64,000 nt of DNA from Meloidogyne chitwoodi (taxonomy: Eukaryota; Nematoda; Chromadorea; Rhabditida; Meloidogynidae), in NCBI GenBank assembly GCA_015183035.1, contig JACZZP010000007.1, forward strand, positions 1,550,001 to 1,614,000, in the 5' to 3' direction. The position numbers and the translations under genes are program-made. The notes under the pieces were generated by a model. The model did no database searches and was not told where the DNA came from. It saw nothing but the letters and a program-made list of their open reading frames with translations. Shown in pieces: positions 3,022 through 43,245 of this stretch (its first letter is position 1; each line of letters begins with the position of its first letter).

Positions 3022-6000
3022 ATGTCTAATTTTATTGATAACGAAGCAGAACTCTCAGAGGCAGCCGAATCGGCTCGATCTGAAACTTCAGAACCTGCTT
3101 TAAAACGTTCAAGAAAATTAAAGGATAAGAAAAGGCGTCATCAGATCAGGTTTATTAAATCTATTTTTTTATATTTTTAACTTTAGTAGCGATGAAGAGG
3201 ATGAAGAAGATGATGCCGAAGATGAGGATAGAGCGCGTGAAGAAATGAAAGGATTTGTTGTAGATGATGAGGATGAGGACGAAGAAGGTGCTGATGGAGG
3301 AGATGATGTTGGTGATGATGAGGTAATTTTCTTATTATAATGTAAACAAGTTCATTTTTAATAATTTAGAGCAGTAAAGCTGGCTCAGATGATGATTTGT
3401 TAGAAGATGACCTAGATCTTCTTAATGAAAATATTGGCCATAATGTACGTGGACGTGTAGAGATTAGTGATGATGAAGATGATCGTGAGCGGATTAAGGG
3501 GCAGCTCTTTGGAACGGTAGATTGAATTTATAAATGGCATTTTTATAAATTTTTTTAGTCTGATTATGTCGATGAATCGCGGCCAAACGAACAAGAATAT
3601 CAACAGAGGGCCTATAATGATCCTGGATCGAGAAGTGAATCAGAACAATCAGGTTATTTTTTTAAACTAATTATCTCTTTCTATTTTTTAGAAGATCCTT
3701 TTATCGTCCAAGATGAGGGTCAACGCCGGAGGTATCGTAAAAAAGGTACAAAGCGTGAATACAGTGATCAAGTACTTGATGAAGCTAAAGATATTTTCGG
3801 AGTTGAGGATTTAGACGAATTTTACGAGGATGAAGGTTTTTTACTAGAATTAATTAAAGGTTCTATTAATTTTAGAAGTACTTGAAGACGAAATTGAAGA
3901 AGGTGAGGAAAGCATTCGAACTACAAGACCGAAAGGCGCAAAAATCACATTATTTGATACAATTGAACCGTCAGAACTTGAAAAGGGTTTTGTTAGGGCA
4001 GAGGATAAAAAAATAATTTGTGAGGACCGGCCAGAAAGATTCCAGGTTTTTTGGCAAAAGAATACTTTGACTTAATTTATGTTATATAGGAACTTATTTT
4101 TTTTACAGATTCGAAAGATTCCAGTCACTGATATTGACGATCACGATCTTCAGCTCGAAGCCCTTTGGATCCTGGAATTTGCATTCAAAGCGCAAACACT
4201 TTCCCAACAAGTTGTTTTTTTATTTATATTTATATATTCAAAGCTTTAAGATTGACACTGGGCTAAGCATCTACAAGCACGGGAAAGGGCCACAAGAAGT
4301 TAACACAGCTGAAGAGGAAGCCCCTGAAAAAATAAAAGAAGCAATTCGTTTTATTCGAAGTCAACTTTTTGAAGTGCCTTTCATTGCTTTTTACCGCAAA
4401 GAATATGTAGAATCGTCGTTATTAATGCCAGATTTATGGAAAGTCTATCAATTTGATGAAAAGGTTTTTATTTTTTCATTATCCTTTAACATTATAATAT
4501 TCTAGTGGTGTCGGTTACAAATGCGAAAATCCCGTATAGTTGACTTACTTAAACGTGTACAAAAATATATAACGGATTCTGGTTATGATGAAGCTTCTAT
4601 TTTACAACGCGTTACTGACAAAGATTTTAAAGAGTATGGATTTTATTTGGCTCTAAAGATTTTTTTATAGGATAATTGGAGTTCAAACGAATGAGGAATT
4701 GTCTGATGTTTATTCACACTTTCAACTTTATTATGGAAGTGAAATGAGGAGAATTGTTGAATGGGAAAGATTGAGTATTTTGCAGGAGACACAGAGCGAT
4801 CTAGAGATTTCTTCGCGTTTCAAACTTGGAAGCCGAACAGATAAATATATGGTAAATTATTAAAGTATTTATGTTTAACAATACACATTCCTGAAAATAT
4901 CCGGAATTTATTAGCTTTGTATTCAATGTGGTCTTTCACCCATGGCTGATTCTTTTGGTCTAACGCCAGAGGAATTTGCGGAAAATTATACAGAATATGT
5001 TAAACACGAAGTGCGTCAAAGTACCAAAGAGCCAAATGATAATGCAAAAGAATTTATTACAGAGTTTGTTTGATCACATATTTTAGAGTAATTATATTTC
5101 TAATTTTTAGAACATTCCCAACGCCTGAAAAAGTTTTTTTTAAGTTTTTTTATTTCATTTTTTTAATTTTTAGGTTGTTCAAGGTGCAATGTATTTACTT
5201 GCAATGCGTTTTAGTCGTGAACCTTCAGTGAGGAAAAAACTTCGTCAAATTTATCGTCAAAACTTACTTCTTTCCGTTTATCCAACAAAAAAGGGGCGCA
5301 ACGAAATTGATGAGAGTCATGTTATTTTTTTTATAAATTCTTTATTCAAAAATTTTATTAAAGTGGCTACATGGTCGTCAATACATTAAGGATAAATCTG
5401 TTAATGAGCTTAAGGATGATGAGTACTTACAGTATGTAAAAGTGAGTTTTTCTAAAGTATATTTTAAGATTTTTTATTATTCGTAAAATTTTTATATGCC
5501 AAAACTCTATGCTAATTAATATGTAAGACATTTAAACCTTTCAAAATCGAATAAAATTTTAAAATGTTATGTTTCGAACAAAGTCATCGAAATACCTCAA
5601 ATAAACATTCTGATTTACATTTTTATTTATTTTAGGCAAAAAACGATGATTTAATCGAAATTAATTTGCACATTGAAACTGATACAACAGGGGAAACAAA
5701 TTGTATGTTACTTAGTTTGACGCGTGAGCCAGTTTTTACCCGTGAAGAATACTTTTACATTACCGAAGAGTGGAATAAACTGCGAAAAGAAGTTCTTCGT
5801 CAATGTGTTTGTGATATTTTAATGCCTGTGTTTCAACGTGAAGCGCACGAAAGGTTATTAGAAGAGGCGCGTGACTGTGTTATTCGAGTAAATTTTATCT
5901 AATAAAATTTATTATTTTCGAAAATTTTTAGAAGGCTTCCCTTCGCCTTAATCATCTTATTTCTACTGAAGCATATAGGAAAACATTTACTTATGATGAA

Positions 6001-11023: not shown

Positions 11024-16608
<5,585 letters not shown>

Positions 16609-32210: not shown

Positions 32211-32454
32211 AATTTTTGTACATTAATTACTGTTGGACTTTATTTTTCGTTCGTTTTGCAATTTTTTAAATAAATTAAAAGTCCTAAATTTTCGCCTGCG
32301 GCGCAAAAAATTGAATTTTTGGCAATTAAGTCTAATAAATATGCAAAATTTTCGCATTCGGCACTAAAACTACCCAAATTTATGTAAATCTACCCGACCC
32401 GACACTTGAGCTAAACCCGGAGCAACCCTGGTACATAAAAAAATTTTTAATAAA

Positions 32455-32613
32455 AAATCCCGCAATCCCGCGCTGGATCCCGCATTAAAAAAATGCGGGA
32501 TTTTGCGGATGCGGGATTTTTGCTGAATTAGTCCCGCAAAACCCGTCCCGCATCAAAATTAAAAAAAAAATCCCGCATGCGGGATCCCGCAAATGCGATT
32601 TTGCCGGTCTCTA
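32455..32613. repeat. ATCCCGCA-word island ending TCTCTA
   Basis: GC-richer block in which ATCCCGCA and its complement TGCGGGAT occur about nine times in both orientations. It finishes with CCGGTCTCTA at 32604-32613, like the right end of the 25692 island. The left border is unclear because related words (CTACCCGACCCGAC, about 32389) continue upstream. Confidence 0.6.
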
Positions 32614-32723
32614 ATATCAAATGCTTTGAGACTCAAATGAATTTAAATTTCATTTTAATTTTTGGACAAAATGCCTTTATACAAATGGTCATTTGACAGA
32701 ATTGACGAATTGTTTTATGTATC

Positions 32724-32816
32724 GGGTGGTTCACTTACAAATTTGATTTAATTATTTACTATTATCTTATTATTTTAGATCTATTAAAAACCGGGAAATA
32801 GTTTAGTGAATCACCC
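32724..32816. repeat. MITE-like unit with GGGTGRTTCACT ends
   Basis: GGGTGGTTCACT at 32724-32735 and AGTGAATCACCC at 32805-32816 are inverted with one mismatch. The same word recurs at 32984-32995 as GGGTGATTCACT. The 93-bp unit therefore shares its right end with the outer end of the large inverted repeat that follows. Confidence 0.5.
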
Positions 32817-34553: not shown

Positions 34554-36867
34554 ATGTCTTCTAAAACATCAACGTCATCAAATGCTCACAATCAACAAAA
34601 AAAGGAATTTCAAGTACGAATACCAAAGTAATTATTTTTTTCAAGTATTATAAAATAATTTTAAAAAGAACCACAAATAAGAGATTAACAATCTTGAAGT
34701 TTAATGAAAGTTTGAATGTAAGGCCTCAACGCTGGACATTGGAAACACTAAGAATGGAAAGAGAAGATAATAGACGAGCTGGCGTTAGTTTCTTTAGATT
34801 TGATTTTAACTGATTTATATTTTTAGTTAACAACTGCTGGTGGATTCGTACAAGATTTTGGGGAAGGTAGTGAATATGGAAAAGCTGCCCGTGAAGAGGC
34901 ACGGCTTAAAAAATTTGGGAGACAAGCTCGCAAATATGAGCATGACAAGCAGCCTTGGCGCTTAACTATTGAGCAACAAGTCACTGGAGATGCAGAATCA
35001 GGAACATCAAAATCGACAAAAATACGAAAATTTAGATCTATGCGAGAAGCTGGCGCAAGTGAACATGCTGACTATTGGGTTTTCTACAAGGTTTACTGAT
35101 TAATAAAATATATTTGAATTTGTTTTATAGTCGGGTAACGATTTGGAAGCGCACAAGGTTGATGAATGGTATCAATTTTTACCGGCAGTAACATATAAAT
35201 ATTTGGATGCCGAACAAGCAGAAGAACGATTCAAGGAACGTGATAAAGTTCTAAATCAATTTGCGTTAAAAGCTCAAATAAAAAAACAACTGGCTGAACA
35301 AGAAGATCAATTACAGCAGCAACAGCGCCAGAAAATTGGTGATACGATGAAACGGACTGGGGCATTGGTAAAAGATAATATTTTAGCAAGTCAAGATTCT
35401 GGTTTAGACCCTTCCAATTTTTACATGTAGTAATAACATTTTGTTTTGAAAAAGTTTTAACTAAAATTGCTTAATTTCTATAAATATTTAAGAAAATCAA
35501 AGATGAGGTTAGCTCTGATGAAGATGGAGAGGGTGATGATGAGGGTGAACAAAATGAGAAATCCAAAAATGGAAAGAAGAAAAAGGATGGTAAGAAGGGC
35601 AAAAAAGCTAAATCTGAAAAGGATGAAAAGAAAACTAAAAAGCAGCGTGTTAAGGCTGCCGATGAAATTGCAGGTTGATAATTAGTTTTTTGTTTATATT
35701 TTCCCAGGTTTTCAGATTATGAATCCTCTGACGGACAAGATGAAGGTCGCGAATATGACTATATGTCAGATTCTGGAAGTGATTCTGAGTAAGTTTTGTT
35801 TTTTATTTTATGATTAAATTTTTTATATAGTATTTTGTAAAAGTATATAACTTTCTTTTAGGAGAGAGCAATTGAATGTAGATCAGAAAATGGATGATGA
35901 TTTGGTCGGAGTAGCTGATGAACAAGGACTAAAACATGATCTTGATTCCGATGAAGATGATGACGATTTTGGCGATGATGAAGATGATGAGAATGAAGAT
36001 GAAGAAGAGAAAAATGAACAAGAGGAAATAAAAAAGAATGGAGTAAAGGAACAAAATAGCGAAACGGGTTTGTTTTTGAGTTGCATTATTAGTGTTTCTT
36101 TAAATTTTTAGTTGAGTCGCGTTCTAGGGCTGTCAAAAATGTTGACAAAATGATGGAACAAAATAGTGGTACCAAAATTAGAGCAGATATTGACGCAGCT
36201 GATGGTTAGTTTTTGTCAATTAATTAATTTACTTTATTTTTGAAATAGATTCGGATGATTCCGATTTTGATGAAGATCCTGACAGTTCAAAAGTTAATTC
36301 TGTACTTTTTATGCAAGATAAAGTTTGATTTTTTTTATATATTGTTTGATTTTTTACATTATTTTAGCGTAAATTGAATCCTCCTGTTTCGTCGTCACAG
36401 CAAAGAAAACGACAGGAACCCGGTGGATCTTCAGAATCACAGCCTTCCTCATCAATTTCTGAACAACCAGAGACTAAACGTGCCAGAATTACTGTGTATT
36501 TCTTTTTAACTTTATTTTTCTTTTAATTTTTATTTAAAGTGATGAACCTGAATTCGAAGCGATTAGTGAATCGTTTATCCGTAAATTGCTTGAGAAGAGA
36601 CCACATAGCACAAAACAGGTATTTTATTTTTCCTTTTACTTAATAAGTGAGAATTTAATTTTTAAAAATTTTCAGCTTTTGACGAAAGTTAATCAGCGTT
36701 TTCAACAGCAAAATAAACAAAATGACATTCAAACACTACCAGTTAAAGACAAAAAAATTGTAGCTCAATTAGCAGAAATTTTGAAAAAGATTGAGCCATA
36801 TCAATTTCGTAAAAAGAATGAAGCTGGTAAAGATGTTTTATATTTTTCAATGAACCGAACAGCATAA
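34554..36867 (+). CDS. GTF2F1: TFIIF alpha subunit (RAP74/GTF2F1)
   Basis: General transcription factor subunit that, with TFIIF-beta, brings RNA polymerase II to promoters. ATG is 34554-34556. The N-terminal dimerisation domain includes LTILKFNESLNV, GFVQDFGEGSEYGK and HADYWVFYK (34680-35090). Then come DEWYQFLPAVTYKYLDAEQAEE (35160-35220) and a coiled, Gln-rich stretch. The middle is highly charged, with Lys-rich (35500-35670) and Asp/Glu-rich (35870-36050) parts and YDYMSDSGSDSE (about 35755). The C-terminal winged helix has ISESFIRKLLEKRPHSTKQ and AEILKKIEPYQFRKK, ending at 36867. The joint between about 35370 and 35494 is uncertain: the open frame runs to a stop at 35428, but the next exon only fits in phase from an internal GT at about 35370 or with a non-canonical site. 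Confidence 0.93.
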
Positions 36868-37305
36868 TTAGGGAATAATAGACATATATAAAGGTTTGCG
36901 ATATTAATTTTTTAATATATTATAAATGTGTTATTTTGTATTGTTTTTATAAAGTTTGTTAATATATGAAAATTTTGTAAAAAAATCTGAGGAATAAAGT
37001 TTTAATATTGTTTTACAATTTTGTAGAATTTCTTTCAAACAAATTTAATTTTTTTATAATTTTTAAATGTTTTAAAATGTGCAAAGTTTTATTATTATTT
37101 TTAACAGGTTTTTATATTTTTTTTAAATATAAAAGCATAATCTTTTGTTTAATCCCTTTGTAAGCATTTAATCCAAAACAAGAAGTAAAATGTGTAAAGA
37201 CAAATTCTTTGTAAATAAAAATATTTAAGCGACTGTCTGTGAAAGGGGGATTTCTCACTTTTTTTATTTTTGTTTTGTACCTTTCGCATTCATCTCTCGC
37301 AGCTG

Positions 37306-37314
37306 TGGGTGGTC
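37306..37314 (-). promoter_or_regulatory. GLI/TRA-1 site 1
   Basis: TGGGTGGTC, the exact complement of the GLI consensus GACCACCCA, 2.6 kb upstream of the GLI-type gene. It is followed by CTTTTC, the same flank as site 2. Confidence 0.6.
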
Positions 37315-37896
37315 CTTTTCTCTCTTGCATTCTTCTCAATTTTTTAAACAATAACATAACAACATGTGTGGTGTTTGTGCTTTGATGGTGGTAGTGGTCT
37401 TTTTTCAGTAGTAAAAAGGTGTGAATTTTTACACAGACTAGTTTTGATTATTATTGGATCAGTTTTATAAATTATTTTATATTAAAATAAATAAGGAATT
37501 ATTGGTCATATACTGGGACACAGAGTTAAAAACTATTTAAAATAAAAAAGTCTGGATATTCTTCTTTAACTGTAAAAAGGCTTTTAAATTGACTTTCTTT
37601 TTCATCATTAATATCTATTTTAATAACTCTTTTTTTGAAGAAAAAGATTTGTTCACTCAAAAAATTTTTAAAACTTTTTTCTCATACATTCAAAAATTAA
37701 AAAAAAAGTCAGAGAATGGCACAGAGGACCACACACAAATATAAATATCCTTTTCTTCCAACCCATTAATTCGAGTCCATGCATTCACACTTTCATTTCT
37801 TCCTCTTCATTCATTCCTCTCCATTTTTTTACAATTTACTCTGTCCAGTTATATATTTGACTGTCCATCTGTCGTTTTGTCTATATTTTATTTATA

Positions 37897-37905
37897 TGGG
37901 TGGTC
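37897..37905 (-). promoter_or_regulatory. GLI/TRA-1 site 2
   Basis: TGGGTGGTC, exact match, with the same downstream flank CTTTTCC as site 1. The shared flank suggests either a longer binding requirement or common origin. Confidence 0.6.
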
Positions 37906-38493
37906 CTTTTCCTATTTATTTTTTTACAACATCCACTAGTCCAACAGGCCACATATGTATATTTTTTTCTTAAATGATTGGAAAAAATCGTACTATAAAC
38001 AACTTTTTTTATCTTTTGCCCACATATTTCGTGTGTGGCCTTTGCCTGGATTAAGACGAAAAAATATGTAAAAAGGGGAGTCGTTGCCCTCTTAGAGACG
38101 TGAACCAGAAAGAGAAAAAAGCGTGTTTTGCCTTTCCTTTTAGTTTCCGTTCCCGCCCTATTCTTAGATTTACTAATCTGTATATAAAAGTGCAGAAACT
38201 TTCACATTTATAGAAAAGAGAGGAACGGGGGAAAAGGTGAGAAACTGTTTGCGTCCCTTCCCTTTATAAATGAGGTATTAAAGTGTGGACATAACTTTTT
38301 GTGTTTTTCGTTCTTTCTTGTTCATTTTTTCTCGTAATCTCGCATTCTCTAATTTTTACTTGTTTTCTCATCTGTTTTTTCTTCTATTTTCATGCATTCC
38401 TACCTTTGTAATCCCGCCCCTTCCCGCACTTGCACTTTTCTTCCAATGACTAATAAAAACAACGAATGGCGTGATAGTGTAAAAGAGAGGAAG

Positions 38494-38513
38494 GACCACC
38501 CAAGCGGGTGGTA
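38494..38513 (+). promoter_or_regulatory. GLI/TRA-1 site 3 with inverted partner
   Basis: GACCACCCA at 38494-38502 is exact. It is followed by CGGGTGGTA at 38505-38513, so ACCACCC and GGGTGGT form a 7-bp inverted pair around AAGC. This would suit two GLI-type proteins bound head to head, or a DNA hairpin. Confidence 0.6.
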
Positions 38514-39426
38514 GCATTAACACGCGTCCCTCATTTAATTCAGCCTCCAGTCATAGAATTGAAAAACAACATTGTTATATAAGAATTTAATAATAAAGAC
38601 CTTTATTTTTATATTTACGTCCTTTTATGTCAGTGAACAATAAAAGTAGAAAAGATTAAATAAAATAAATTCTTTTAAAACAATTTGTAGCTTCTCCAGA
38701 GTGTTAAATAAATAAAAAGAAGAAAAGTGTTAAGTTGGACTCTATTAATTCCTCTACAAAATATAAAATAAATAAAATAAACCTGCGCATTTGTTTTTTT
38801 TAATTCTCTTTATAAATAGCTTTTGTAGTTTCTCAGTTCTTTATTCTTTCATTAAAAAAATTTTTTATTTTATTTTTTTATTTTAAAGACTAAAATAATT
38901 AAATTATTTTAATTAATTTGAAATTTTTTTTAAAATTTATAAATAAAATTTTCTATATTTTTTTTTTTGATTTTAAATTTTATTTTTAAAAATAATTTTT
39001 ATTCCACTCCTCTAGTCTAGTCATAATAATTATAAGGGTTGTCATGTGAATAAGAACATTTTTTGTAAAGAAGATTATTTTTTGATTTTTTTCACTTGGA
39101 TTTTTCAGCCAAACAAAAATTTTTTTTAGATTTTTTTAAATTTTCTGATGGAATTTTTTCGTCAATTAAATATTTTCTTTTTATAAAATATTTAAGAGAA
39201 TCAAATTATTTAAAATAACCCTGAGGAGAAGATTAAGAGTTAAAAATAGAGAAATTAAATTAATAAAAAATATAAACTTGTAATTGTTAATAAATTAATA
39301 AAAAAACTTTGAATTAATATAATCTTTTTACTTTTAAAACTATTTTATTTTTTTTACCAATTTGCCATCAAAACACCCTCATTATTATTTTTTTCTTTAC
39401 CAAAAAGAATAAAAAATGGCAGAAAA

Positions 39427-39435
39427 GACCACCCA
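39427..39435 (+). promoter_or_regulatory. GLI/TRA-1 site 4
   Basis: GACCACCCA, exact match, about 505 bp upstream of the start codon of the GLI-type gene, in an otherwise A/T-rich stretch. Confidence 0.6.
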
Positions 39436-39940
39436 AGTATTTAGATGGCCTTTTTATTATTTCTTTTTTTCCTATTATTTATTTCAACTCTTTTTAATCT
39501 CTTTCTATAAAAAAAAAACTCCCAACAATTGTGTTCTGTGTTTTTAAATAATTGGCAAAAACAACAAAATTAATTAATTACGTCATATTTTTATAAATAA
39601 TAAAAATATATTTTTTTTTTAAATAAATTTATAATTAAAAAAAAAACTTTTAAAAACAAACAAATGCTTAGTTAGTGTGTTTTTTAATAAATTAAAAAAA
39701 AAGAAAGAAGAAGGAAAAAGTTGTTTTGTTAATATTTTTGTTTGTTTTTTTAAAAAAAAAAAAAATAAAAGTACAGAAAACAGGTGTGTTTTTTTAAAAT
39801 TATTATTGTACTTTTAATAAATTTTATTATAAAAATTTAAATATATTTTAATTTAATTGTTTTATTTAAATTTTATAAAAATTTTAGTAAATTTGTTTGG
39901 TATGAAAATAATTGTAAAAAATTAATTTATTTAAAAATAA

Positions 39941-41559
39941 ATGGAAATAAATAATTTAATGATATCAAAAATGTTATTTTCTTCTAATGAATTTATTTCT
40001 TCTCCTTTAATAAATCAAAATATATCTGGAACAGATTTTGGACAATCTTCTTCTTCTTCTAATAATAATTATTATTTTCCTTTTGATGATTTAAATAATT
40101 TTATATTATTTTATCAACAACAACAAACAGCTTTTCAATTAATTACAAATAATCCTTCTATGTAAAAATATATTTATTTATTTTTTAAAAATATCTTTAA
40201 CATTTCCATATGTCCTAATCTCTTTAGTTATTTTTAGTAAAGATATTTTTGAGGATAAAATAAAAATATTATTTTTTTCCAATTTATATATTTAATATTT
40301 TTAAGTCCTTCTAATGATTATTTACCTCAACAAATACCTTCACAACAAATAATTGTTAAACAATTTTTAAAACCAGAATTATTAAATAAACAACAACAAC
40401 AACAAAATAATAATAATAATAATGATTATTCACAAAATAATTTATCAATAAAATTAGAAGAAGAACAAATTAAAAAAATTATAAAAAATAATAATAATTT
40501 TTTAGAGCCAATGCAACGTGGACGAACTTGTTCAGGTTAAAAATAATTTTAAATAAAATATAACTTTTTTTATTATTTTATTAGAACCAATTTCAAATTC
40601 TTCTTTAATTCAACAATCTTCTTTTTCTAATAATTTATTAACAAATTGTTCAACAACATCATCATTTAATAATTTATCTTCTTCTTCTAATTCTAATTTA
40701 TCTTGTTCTGATTCAATAATTTTACTTTGTGAATGGATTGGATGTTCTAAACATTTCATTGGACGTCAAAATTTTCTTAAACATATTCAGGTAAATTTTA
40801 TGAATTAAAAAGAGGTAATAAAGAGAAATATTTAATTTAATTTTTAATTTATTTTTAATTTTCTTAGAATGAACATTTATTATTATCTTCTAATTTGGTT
40901 AATAATAATAATGTTGGAAATAGCAATAATTCACCAATTTGTTATTGGCGTAATTGTCCACGTGGAGGAAGACCATTTGGAGCACTTTATATGTTACAAC
41001 AACATTTAAGAGCTCATACTGGAGAAAAAGTTTGTTTTTTAAATTAATTAAAAATTAAATTTAATTTTTTTAAAGCCTTATCAATGTTTAATTAAAAATT
41101 GTGGAAAAAGATATTCTAGACTTGAAAATTTAAAAACTCATACAAGAAAACACACTGGGGAAAGGCCCTATCGATGCAATTCTTGTAACTCTGATTTTAC
41201 TAATGCATCTGATCGTTAATTTTTATTTTTTATTTAAATTATTTTATTTTTAATTATTAGGTTCAAAACATGTAGAACGTGTTCATGGAGGAAAGGTTTT
41301 TATTTTTTTAATTAAAGAAAATCTAAAAAAATTAATAAATTTTGATTTTTAGATGAGAAAATTAAATCAAAATTTAATTAAATTATTATTTTAAAAAATT
41401 AATTTAAAGAAAAGATATCGATGTACAAATTGTCAATGTGCATATACTGATCCTTCTTCATTACGTAAACATATACTTAATGCTCATGGTCAATTAGAAT
41501 GGATTGCTTATAAAAATAGAAGACAATATGAAAGACAAAATATTATAATAAATAAATAA
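39941..41559 (+). CDS. GLI-family five-zinc-finger transcription factor (TRA-1-like)
   Basis: ATG 39941; seven exons; TAA 41557-41559; roughly 400 residues. The N-terminal half is low-complexity (Ser, Asn, Gln). Five C2H2 fingers follow. Finger 1 is CEWIGC with H and H in FLKHIQNEH. Finger 2 is CYWRNC with [16 protein letters not shown]. Finger 3 is [19 protein letters not shown]. Finger 4 is [17 protein letters not shown] (Cys spacing x2, not the usual x4). Finger 5 is [17 protein letters not shown]. The [16 protein letters not shown] and [10 protein letters not shown] helices are the GLI signature, and fingers 4 and 5 make the base contacts to GACCACCCA in known GLI-DNA complexes. The RPF.A.YML motif in finger 2 favours GLI/TRA-1 over GLIS or ZIC. 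The protein ends about 25 residues after finger 5, far shorter than TRA-1 or vertebrate GLI. Confidence 0.87.
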
Positions 41560-41734
41560 ATAAATAATTTAATTAATTAATTACTTGCTTTATAAAATAT
41601 ATAATTGCTTTATTTTATTTTTAAAAGAAGAATCTCTTTTATTTTTTTGATGTTAAAAAATAGAAGATAAACATTTTTTAATTTATTATTTTAAATATTA
41701 AAAATAAAATTTAATTAAAAAATAAATAATATCT

Positions 41735-43245
41735 TTAAAAATCCATCACAATTTGAGCATTAGACTTTTCTGGTCGAAGTTTTCGACTTAATGAGAATTT
41801 TGGTTCACCTTCAAAAAATTAAATTTTACAAAAAGAAAGAAATATTAAATTATACGATTAAAGAATTTGCTGCTTAAATGTTTAACAACTTCTACAATTG
41901 AATTACGATCTGTTGAAGATGTTTCAAATAATTTTACTAAAAAATTATTAAAAAATATATTTAAATAAACAAAACCTTTTTCTTGAGTAGCCCAATTTAA
42001 AGCAAATTGTCTTTCTACTCGACGACGTCCTGGCAAATCACATTTTGTCCCAACAATAATAATTTGAGTAATCTAAATTTTTTAACAATTTTTTATTAAA
42101 AATTATTGAAAATAAAAATACTTCTCCTCCACCACGTTTTTCTTTTCCACTAATTCCAAACTTTTCCCTTTCTAATTGTTTTTTAATTGCATCAATTCGA
42201 TTAAATGAATCCGGATCTGTAACTGAATAAACAAGAAGAAACGCATCAGCTACCTTTAAATATATTTTTTTAATTTTAAATCTTTTAAATTAAAAAAATA
42301 AAAGACAAAAACAAAATTAATTCAGCTAAAAAAATTTAAAAAAAATAAACCTGTAAATGTGCTTTTTTTAATTCAATATTTCCAAAAGGAGAAATTCCAA
42401 CAGTATCATGAAATAAAATTAATTCAATTGGAGATTGTCGAATATTGCCATCTTGAATGTTTAAAGAGTTTAATGGTTGATGTACTTGAATATGATAAGT
42501 ATCATCTTCACGTGTAGGTGAATAATTCTATTATTTTTTTAATTAAAAAAAAATAAAATTTTAAAATATTTTTACCTGTTCAATTATTGGAGATGTAATA
42601 GGTGAAGTATTACCTAATGATGTATTTGGCATTTTTCCATAAGCTAATGTACGAAGAAATGTTGTCTAAATAAAAATAAAATATATTTAAAATTTTTAAC
42701 TTTTCCAGCATCTTTAGGTCCAATAACAATTACATTCATAATTTTTGGTTTCATTAATTCAATATTTTCAGTTGCTCTAGACCTTCTTGATACACTTCTT
42801 GGTTGTCTTTTATCTTTTGAAGAAATAAAATAAAATTTCTAACAAAATATCTTTTATTTATGTTATAAATAAAATTCCAATGCAAATCCGAAAATTTTAT
42901 TTTATCAGACTCTATTTTACAATTAATAATTTTTAAAAAACAGAATGCCAAAAAAATAATTTAAATATTTATTTATTAAAATTAAATACCAGAAGATGTT
43001 TCAGTTGGACTATTCTTTCCAGTTTGTTTTTCTCCAAGTAAAAGTTGTGCTAAAGTGCCACGTCGTTTTTGATCAGTTTTTTTCACATCTTCTGCTTCTT
43101 TAGGAAATTCTTCTATAAAATAAATAACAAATTATATTTTACTTTAAAAAATAAATAAAATAATTTTAGTGCCTAATAATCTTCCAAAAATACATTGAAT
43201 AGAATGACGACGAGAATTTAAAGTATTAGTATTTTTAATATTCAT
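41735..43245 (-). CDS. kappaB-Ras-like small GTPase with N-terminal extension
   Basis: About eight exons from ATG 43243-43245 to TAA 41735-41737. A Lys/Ser-rich N-terminal extension of about 80 residues precedes the P-loop VIGPKDAGKT (about 42720). The G3 region reads LFHDTVGISPFG (about 42400) rather than DxxGQ. Then come ADAFLLVYSVTDPDSFNRI (about 42250-42200), the G4 motif GTKCDL (about 42045), WATQEKVKLFETSSTDR, and the tail FSLSRKLRPEK. The DT.G motif without the catalytic Gln, the VYSV helix and the C-terminal KL region resemble NKIRAS (kappaB-Ras), which binds IkappaB or Ral regulators in vertebrates. No CAAX box is present. The N-terminal extension and its insertions are not typical. 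Function in nematodes, which lack classical NF-kappaB, is open. Confidence 0.75.

Follow-up and report, generated by a model that had tools for sequence, protein, structure and literature searches.

Five-finger proteins of the GLI family and the core GACCACCCA characterize the target enhancers of vertebrate GLI and Drosophila Ci, and Berkseth and colleagues reportedly found in 2013 that TRA-1 of C. elegans binds its own locus. According to the available text of the papers cited here by accession, C. elegans TRA-1 represses mab-3 and other male genes (PMC13255598), and snpc-1.3 and fog-3 of Caenorhabditis are examples of a single repressed target with several TRA-1 sites upstream (PMC7884074, PMC12719749, PMC13255598); mutation of several of these sites derepresses snpc-1.3, and the clustered sites act jointly (PMC7884074). 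Bursaphelenchus okinawaensis has a long tra-1a (717 amino acids), which mutants have proven to be a sex regulator, and a short tra-1b (273 amino acids); in Bursaphelenchus, males have more tra-1 RNA than hermaphrodites, tra-1 mutant pseudomales have more than either, and mab-3 follows suit in the comparison of males with pseudomales (PMC9095866). The tra-1 RNA pattern in this related nematode is consistent with negative feedback on tra-1. Here we describe a 64-kb stretch of the Meloidogyne chitwoodi genome (the window, C28:1550001-1614000, from an assembly of 47,477,280 bases in 30 contigs) in which exact copies of GACCACCCA are clustered upstream of a short gene of the GLI family. We regard it as likely, from the sequence, that this 3-kb region is a cis-regulatory GLI/TRA-1 cluster that puts the short gene under the control of GLI-family proteins.

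The site cluster

The window contains four exact copies of GACCACCCA, at 37306 and 37897 on the minus strand and at 38494 and 39427 on the plus strand; all four lie within the 3,074 bases that precede the GLI-type gene, in a cluster spanning 2.13 kb. An initial annotation of this DNA had placed the four copies at these positions and had noticed no others, and an exact search across the 64 kb agrees with it on both counts. It had also held that such a G/C-rich 9-mer is unexpected in A/T-rich DNA, and this is borne out by an expectation of 0.04 copies for the window and by the failure of any of 100 shuffles to reach four. When the 3,074-base upstream region (24% G+C) was shuffled by itself, 2,989 of 3,000 shuffles had no copy and the remaining 11 had one. 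Among the 9-mers of that region that have at least five G/C, GACCACCCA recurs most often, and only one of 119 overlapping 3,074-base tiles of the window, the tile on this region, has any 9-mer with at least six G/C present four times. With up to one mismatch allowed there are nine copies in the window, five of them in the upstream region, including GACCACACA at 37727.

The 47.5-Mb genome as a whole has 120 exact copies of GACCACCCA versus 42 of the reversed pattern. The three smallest gaps among the 120 (591, 597 and 933 bases) are all inside the window cluster, which is the tightest of all and of which no second copy was found, and the fourth smallest (2,057 bases) is on contig C5. When 120 sites were placed uniformly 20,000 times, three fell within 2,130 bases in 38 trials and four in none, figures that are a guide and not an exact probability because they ignore local composition and because some of the copies look repeat-borne. 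With more exact cores ahead of a single gene than chance would give, the region has the character of a homotypic cluster.

The individual cores are at 37306..37314 (minus strand, 5' flank GAGAGAAAAG), 37897..37905 (minus strand, ATAGGAAAAG), 38494..38502 (plus strand, GAGAGGAAG) and 39427..39435 (plus strand, GGCAGAAAA), the last being separated from the ATG by 505 bases; the one-mismatch core GACCACACA occupies 37727..37735 on the plus strand and has the flank CAGAG. Site 3 is adjoined by an inverted partial core, ACCACCC, at 38506..38512 on the minus strand, which makes 38494-38512 a near-palindrome (ACCACCC-AAGC-GGGTGGT). Sites 1 and 2 both read GAAAAGGACCACCCA, site 3 reads GGAAGGACCACCCA and site 4 reads AGAAAAGACCACCCA, so the flank CTTTTC, which the initial annotation had reported as common to sites 1 and 2, is real; it is a purine run read on the other strand. 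All four sites have purines at seven or more of the eight positions just 5' of the core. The base before the core is a purine in 66 and a pyrimidine in 54 of the 120 genomic copies, and a flank this rich in purines (at least 7 of 8) is present in 17 of the 66 purine-preceded ones, which gives a hypergeometric value of 0.0033 for four out of four, for a flank that, like the target families discussed below, was chosen partly after the sites were known (among the pyrimidine-preceded copies, 8 of 54 were inspected for the flank). The extended pattern RRRRRGACCACMCA has 35 genomic copies versus seven of reversed controls, and more than two copies inside 10 kb are found only at the window cluster.

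It is highly improbable that these copies arose by chance or duplication, from a local repeat or from G/C-rich patches, and have no role. The region does contain islands richer in G/C, which reach 0.45 per 100 bases compared with a mean of 0.24, and elsewhere in the genome some copies share near-identical flanks and seem to be carried by repeats, but shuffles of the G/C-richer part alone (37250-38550) never gave more than one copy (3,000 shuffles, 0 or 1 each) and the flanks past the purine run differ among the four sites. A repeat origin was rejected because none of the 84 genomic matches listed for the region (all in A/T-rich stretches; 40 of 97 candidates were scored) covers a site.

A short and a long GLI gene

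The gene that follows the cluster is predicted by a splice-site gene model to have seven coding exons on the plus strand between 39941 and 41559 (39941-40161, 40306-40535, 40585-40790, 40868-41029, 41076-41214, 41261-41295 and 41410-41559) and to encode 380 amino acids. Its product has five C2H2 fingers (C2H2 families in Pfam) at the C-terminal end, with GLI-type helices in fingers 3 to 5, and as only 23 residues follow the last His of finger 5, there is no long C-terminal region of the TRA-1A type. Residues 2-161 of the 177-residue finger part match the GLI-DNA complex 2gli (E 3.1e-41), fourth in rank behind repeat-rich ZNF568 chains. The best 120 hits were listed per protein search, many of them unrelated zinc fingers, and among these matches are close relatives in M. 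graminicola (89% over the query part), M. enterolobii (80%), M. incognita (82%, a 162-residue piece) and the cyst nematodes Globodera rostochiensis (55%), Heterodera schachtii (51%) and H. trifolii (49%). The structural model of the M. graminicola protein has five fingers of mostly high confidence, with pLDDT (predicted local distance difference test) mostly 85-95 when taken in 10-residue blocks; the mean over the whole model, 73.3, is lowered by a disordered N-terminus, and the model's top structure match is 2gli (E 3.5e-16).

The window gene is not the sole GLI gene of M. chitwoodi, for contig C1 carries a second one that is long and TRA-1-like, with finger exons at 2446378-2447295. Its modelled part, incomplete at both ends, has 941 residues, 708 of them past finger 5; the M. 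enterolobii relative has 981 residues. In a GLI tree of 33 rows and 156 columns, which has long branches and was made without a C. elegans TRA-1 row, the short tylenchid proteins group together (100/96), separately from the two long Meloidogyne proteins, which pair with each other (99/94). The short clade and the long pair are jointly set apart from the remaining 24 rows at 98/87, a join that the long branches make unsafe. Judged by its sequence, the gene in the window is a short paralogue in the GLI family, and three tylenchid genera contain relatives of it.

Can the DNA-reading residues tell which protein binds the cluster? With helix positions numbered by the usual zinc-finger rule, a bird GLI1, B. 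okinawaensis TRA-1a and both M. chitwoodi proteins, long and short, have the same residues at positions -1, 2, 3 and 6 of fingers 3 to 5. Finger 4 does vary at other positions: its helix is NASDRSKH in the short protein, NASDKAKH in the long one and NASDRAKH in GLI1, and the retention of GLI-type helices in fingers 4 and 5 that the initial annotation described is evident, including TNASDRSKH in finger 4 of the short protein, whose coding sequence is interrupted by an intron. Since both GLI proteins have the same base-reading positions, the sequence cannot choose the binder, and the long protein is at least as likely as the short one to be it.

This matters for strict autoregulation, in which the short protein would bind its own upstream cluster and repress or maintain itself independently of the long protein. 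Such a loop is a real possibility, if one we would bet against: fingers 3 to 5 of the short protein keep the GLI base-reading positions, the model of its M. graminicola relative fits 2gli best, and the densest cluster is at the short gene itself, with no exact site near the long gene. On the other hand, the short protein has the shortened Cys-x2-Cys spacing in fingers 4 and 5 (the long protein has it in finger 4) and a divergent linker between fingers 1 and 2, and it shares its base-reading positions with a second GLI protein. The autoregulation first suggested for this locus thus survives in part; the computed evidence (genomic uniqueness, purine flank and the pair at a two-DM gene, below) gives good support to functional GLI/TRA-1-type sites that control the downstream GLI gene, and it is the strictness of the self-regulation that the second protein speaks against.

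A two-DM gene and other sites in the genome

Because mab-3 is said to be a direct TRA-1 target (work attributed to Yi and colleagues in 2000), the genome was searched for DM domains; there are six matches at four loci. One gene, at C5:2131528-2131833 on the minus strand, has two stretches that match Pfam DM (1.1e-29), and two DM domains mark a C. elegans group that includes mab-3 and dmd-3 (available text of PMC13089330). It is likely a mab-3-type relative and a candidate direct target of GLI/TRA-1, and a gene on C23 with two partial DM matches may also be of the two-DM kind. The next-closest exact pair of GACCACCCA in the genome after the window cluster, C5:2140045 and 2142102, lies upstream of this C5 gene, which gives separate evidence that clusters of this kind mark targets of GLI/TRA-1 in this genome. 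The 9,270-base stretch between the inferred 5' end of the gene (about 2134.2 kb) and the next gene (about 2143.5 kb; both ends set by eye), an open reading frame that looks CTD-phosphatase-like by eye, has two exact and eight one-mismatch copies (two of them overlapping), and the GACCACACA variant is present twice. Compared with a background of five copies at up to one mismatch in 114,432 bases (seven loci plus the rest of the window), the Poisson values are 1.3e-8 for eight one-mismatch copies and 2.5e-7 for seven; with the richer background of 15 loci that were selected for having an exact site (120,015 bases, 11 one-mismatch copies) the values become 3e-6 and 3e-5. All of these are guides, because the stretch was picked for its exact pair. 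At about 3221-3510 of this locus (L025), the surroundings of ccccccatttcagtgccaa recur by eye in reverse complement about 200 bases on, which suggests that the upstream DNA of the two-DM gene holds a small element with inverted repeats.

The pair at the two-DM gene also bears on whether another zinc-finger factor, either a ZIC/REF-2-like protein or a KLF/CACCC-box factor, uses these sites. CCACCC is a CACCC-box-like core, and C23:981-983 kb (L022) holds a gene with ZIC/REF-2-like fingers (named by eye) that is distinct from both GLI genes. ZIC sites differ from GACCACCCA, however, the full 9-mer including its GAC is kept four times, the sole extra CCACCC in the region is the inverted partner of site 3, and the next-closest pair stands at a gene of a TRA-1 target type, all of which makes such a factor improbable.

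Several observations weigh against reading the cluster as a GLI/TRA-1 control element. The extended C. elegans TRA-1 site has TTTTC, four bases and then TGGGTGGTC, and none of the four cluster sites has TTTTC four bases before TGGGTGGTC (flanks judged by eye), nor does any carry the A/T-rich half of that consensus on the customary side. The 9.9 kb that hold the modelled part of the long GLI gene have no copy at up to one mismatch, and there is no exact GACCACCCA within 364 kb of that gene, so that the loop would be one-sided and a self-loop of the long protein has no support here. The loci around two other DM genes, on C23 and C2 (L094 and L095), have no copies at up to one mismatch, although this control is weak because G+C is just 14% in the 7.3 kb that precede the C23 gene and because other open reading frames take up part of the 7.4 kb ahead of the C2 gene; the nearest exact site to the fourth DM gene is 256 kb away. 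fog-3 (BTG) and fog-1 (CPEB) are TRA-1 target types in C. elegans, and the one BTG gene and three CPEB genes recognised here have no exact site within 90 kb; a flanked GACCACACA near the BTG gene, at C23:650669, was set aside because other open reading frames lie in between. Finally, in the 8 kb around C2:776360 (L036, C2:772360-780360, G+C 0.36) one exact copy is accompanied by four one-mismatch copies, and no sex gene was recognised there.

Other exact copies in the genome are of several kinds. Those at C26:2091495, 2143288 and 2245028 (L083, L084 and L085) and L042/L074 have near-identical flanks around GACCACCCA, so part of the 120 copies seem to be members of repeats. Identical 39-base contexts are found on C16 and C17 (L072 and L073) and at C11:778012 (L070); C16 (153,282 bases) and C17 (153,258 bases) may be near-identical contigs, perhaps uncollapsed copies. 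A site pair on C27 has identical flanks and looks duplicated. The two sites of the C7 pair, at 719391 and 723881, flank a gene of the TCP-1/cpn60 family, and no sex gene was recognised near them. Within the window, two other G/C-rich 9-mers, GCGGGATCC and CCTGGACCA, occur three times within 3 kb, at about 32257-32770 and 12801-14338, possibly in coding repeats. The intergenic region with the cluster (36867..39940, plus strand) starts after the stop codon of a preceding plus-strand gene, which encodes a TFIIF-alpha C-terminus (Pfam TFIIF_alpha score 27.8, cut-off 27.1). By eye this region has no coding-looking open reading frame of at least 50 amino acids, and an RNA gene there was rejected because Rfam gave no match at gathering scores in 36000-42000.

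Proposed regulation and comparison with known systems

We propose that the long TRA-1-like protein encoded on C1 would bind the cluster and mainly repress the short GLI gene in one sex, as TRA-1 does its targets in C. elegans, and that the short protein may bind the same sites, competing with the long protein or restraining itself. Repression is favoured because C. elegans TRA-1 represses male genes, because the snpc-1.3 sites act jointly and because of the Bursaphelenchus tra-1 RNA pattern. The parts of this scheme differ in strength: that some GLI-family protein controls the short gene is very probable, that the long protein is a binder is reasonably probable, and that the short protein regulates itself in vivo has somewhat less than an even chance. 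The arrangement is probably one of cross-regulation between GLI paralogues. A broader and rather unlikely idea is that tylenchids have split GLI/TRA-1 function, with the long protein acting through the site cluster on a short finger-only GLI protein that in turn binds the same class of sites (including those at the mab-3-type gene) as a competitor or dedicated repressor, the whole forming a two-tier sex switch.

How sex is set in root-knot and cyst nematodes is poorly known; M. hapla is XX/XO with facultative parthenogenesis (available text of a review, PMC8303164). The outcome here is a proposed regulatory element concrete enough to test, together with a second GLI gene that has relatives in three tylenchid genera and a two-DM gene that is likely to be a direct target. 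This suggests that plant parasites, too, have a TRA-1-to-mab-3 link and feedback on a GLI gene, and the feedback loop may have moved to the short paralogue. We found no short GLI paralogue or GLI-site cluster described for tylenchid nematodes besides PMC9095866, which does not prove their absence from print.

Like M. chitwoodi, B. okinawaensis has GLI homologues of two sizes, one long and one short, although the available text of PMC9095866 does not mention a site cluster, and Bok-tra-1b (273 amino acids) was not among the best 120 hits listed in each of three protein searches. With snpc-1.3 and fog-3, as the available text describes them, the locus shares multiple TRA-1 sites upstream of a single target; those targets are male or sperm genes, whereas here the putative target is a GLI gene, and snpc-1.3 differs in having its three sites within 200 bases of the start codon. 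The GACCACCCA core and a five-finger protein are shared with vertebrate GLI and Drosophila Ci. Compared with C. elegans TRA-1, the sites here stand at the short paralogue and the long TRA-1-like gene shows none, and the purine run is 5' of GACCACCCA, whereas the A/T-rich half of the extended consensus is on the other flank. The likeness to C. elegans is nevertheless twofold, with GLI-type sites at a GLI-family gene and again upstream of a two-DM, mab-3-type gene.
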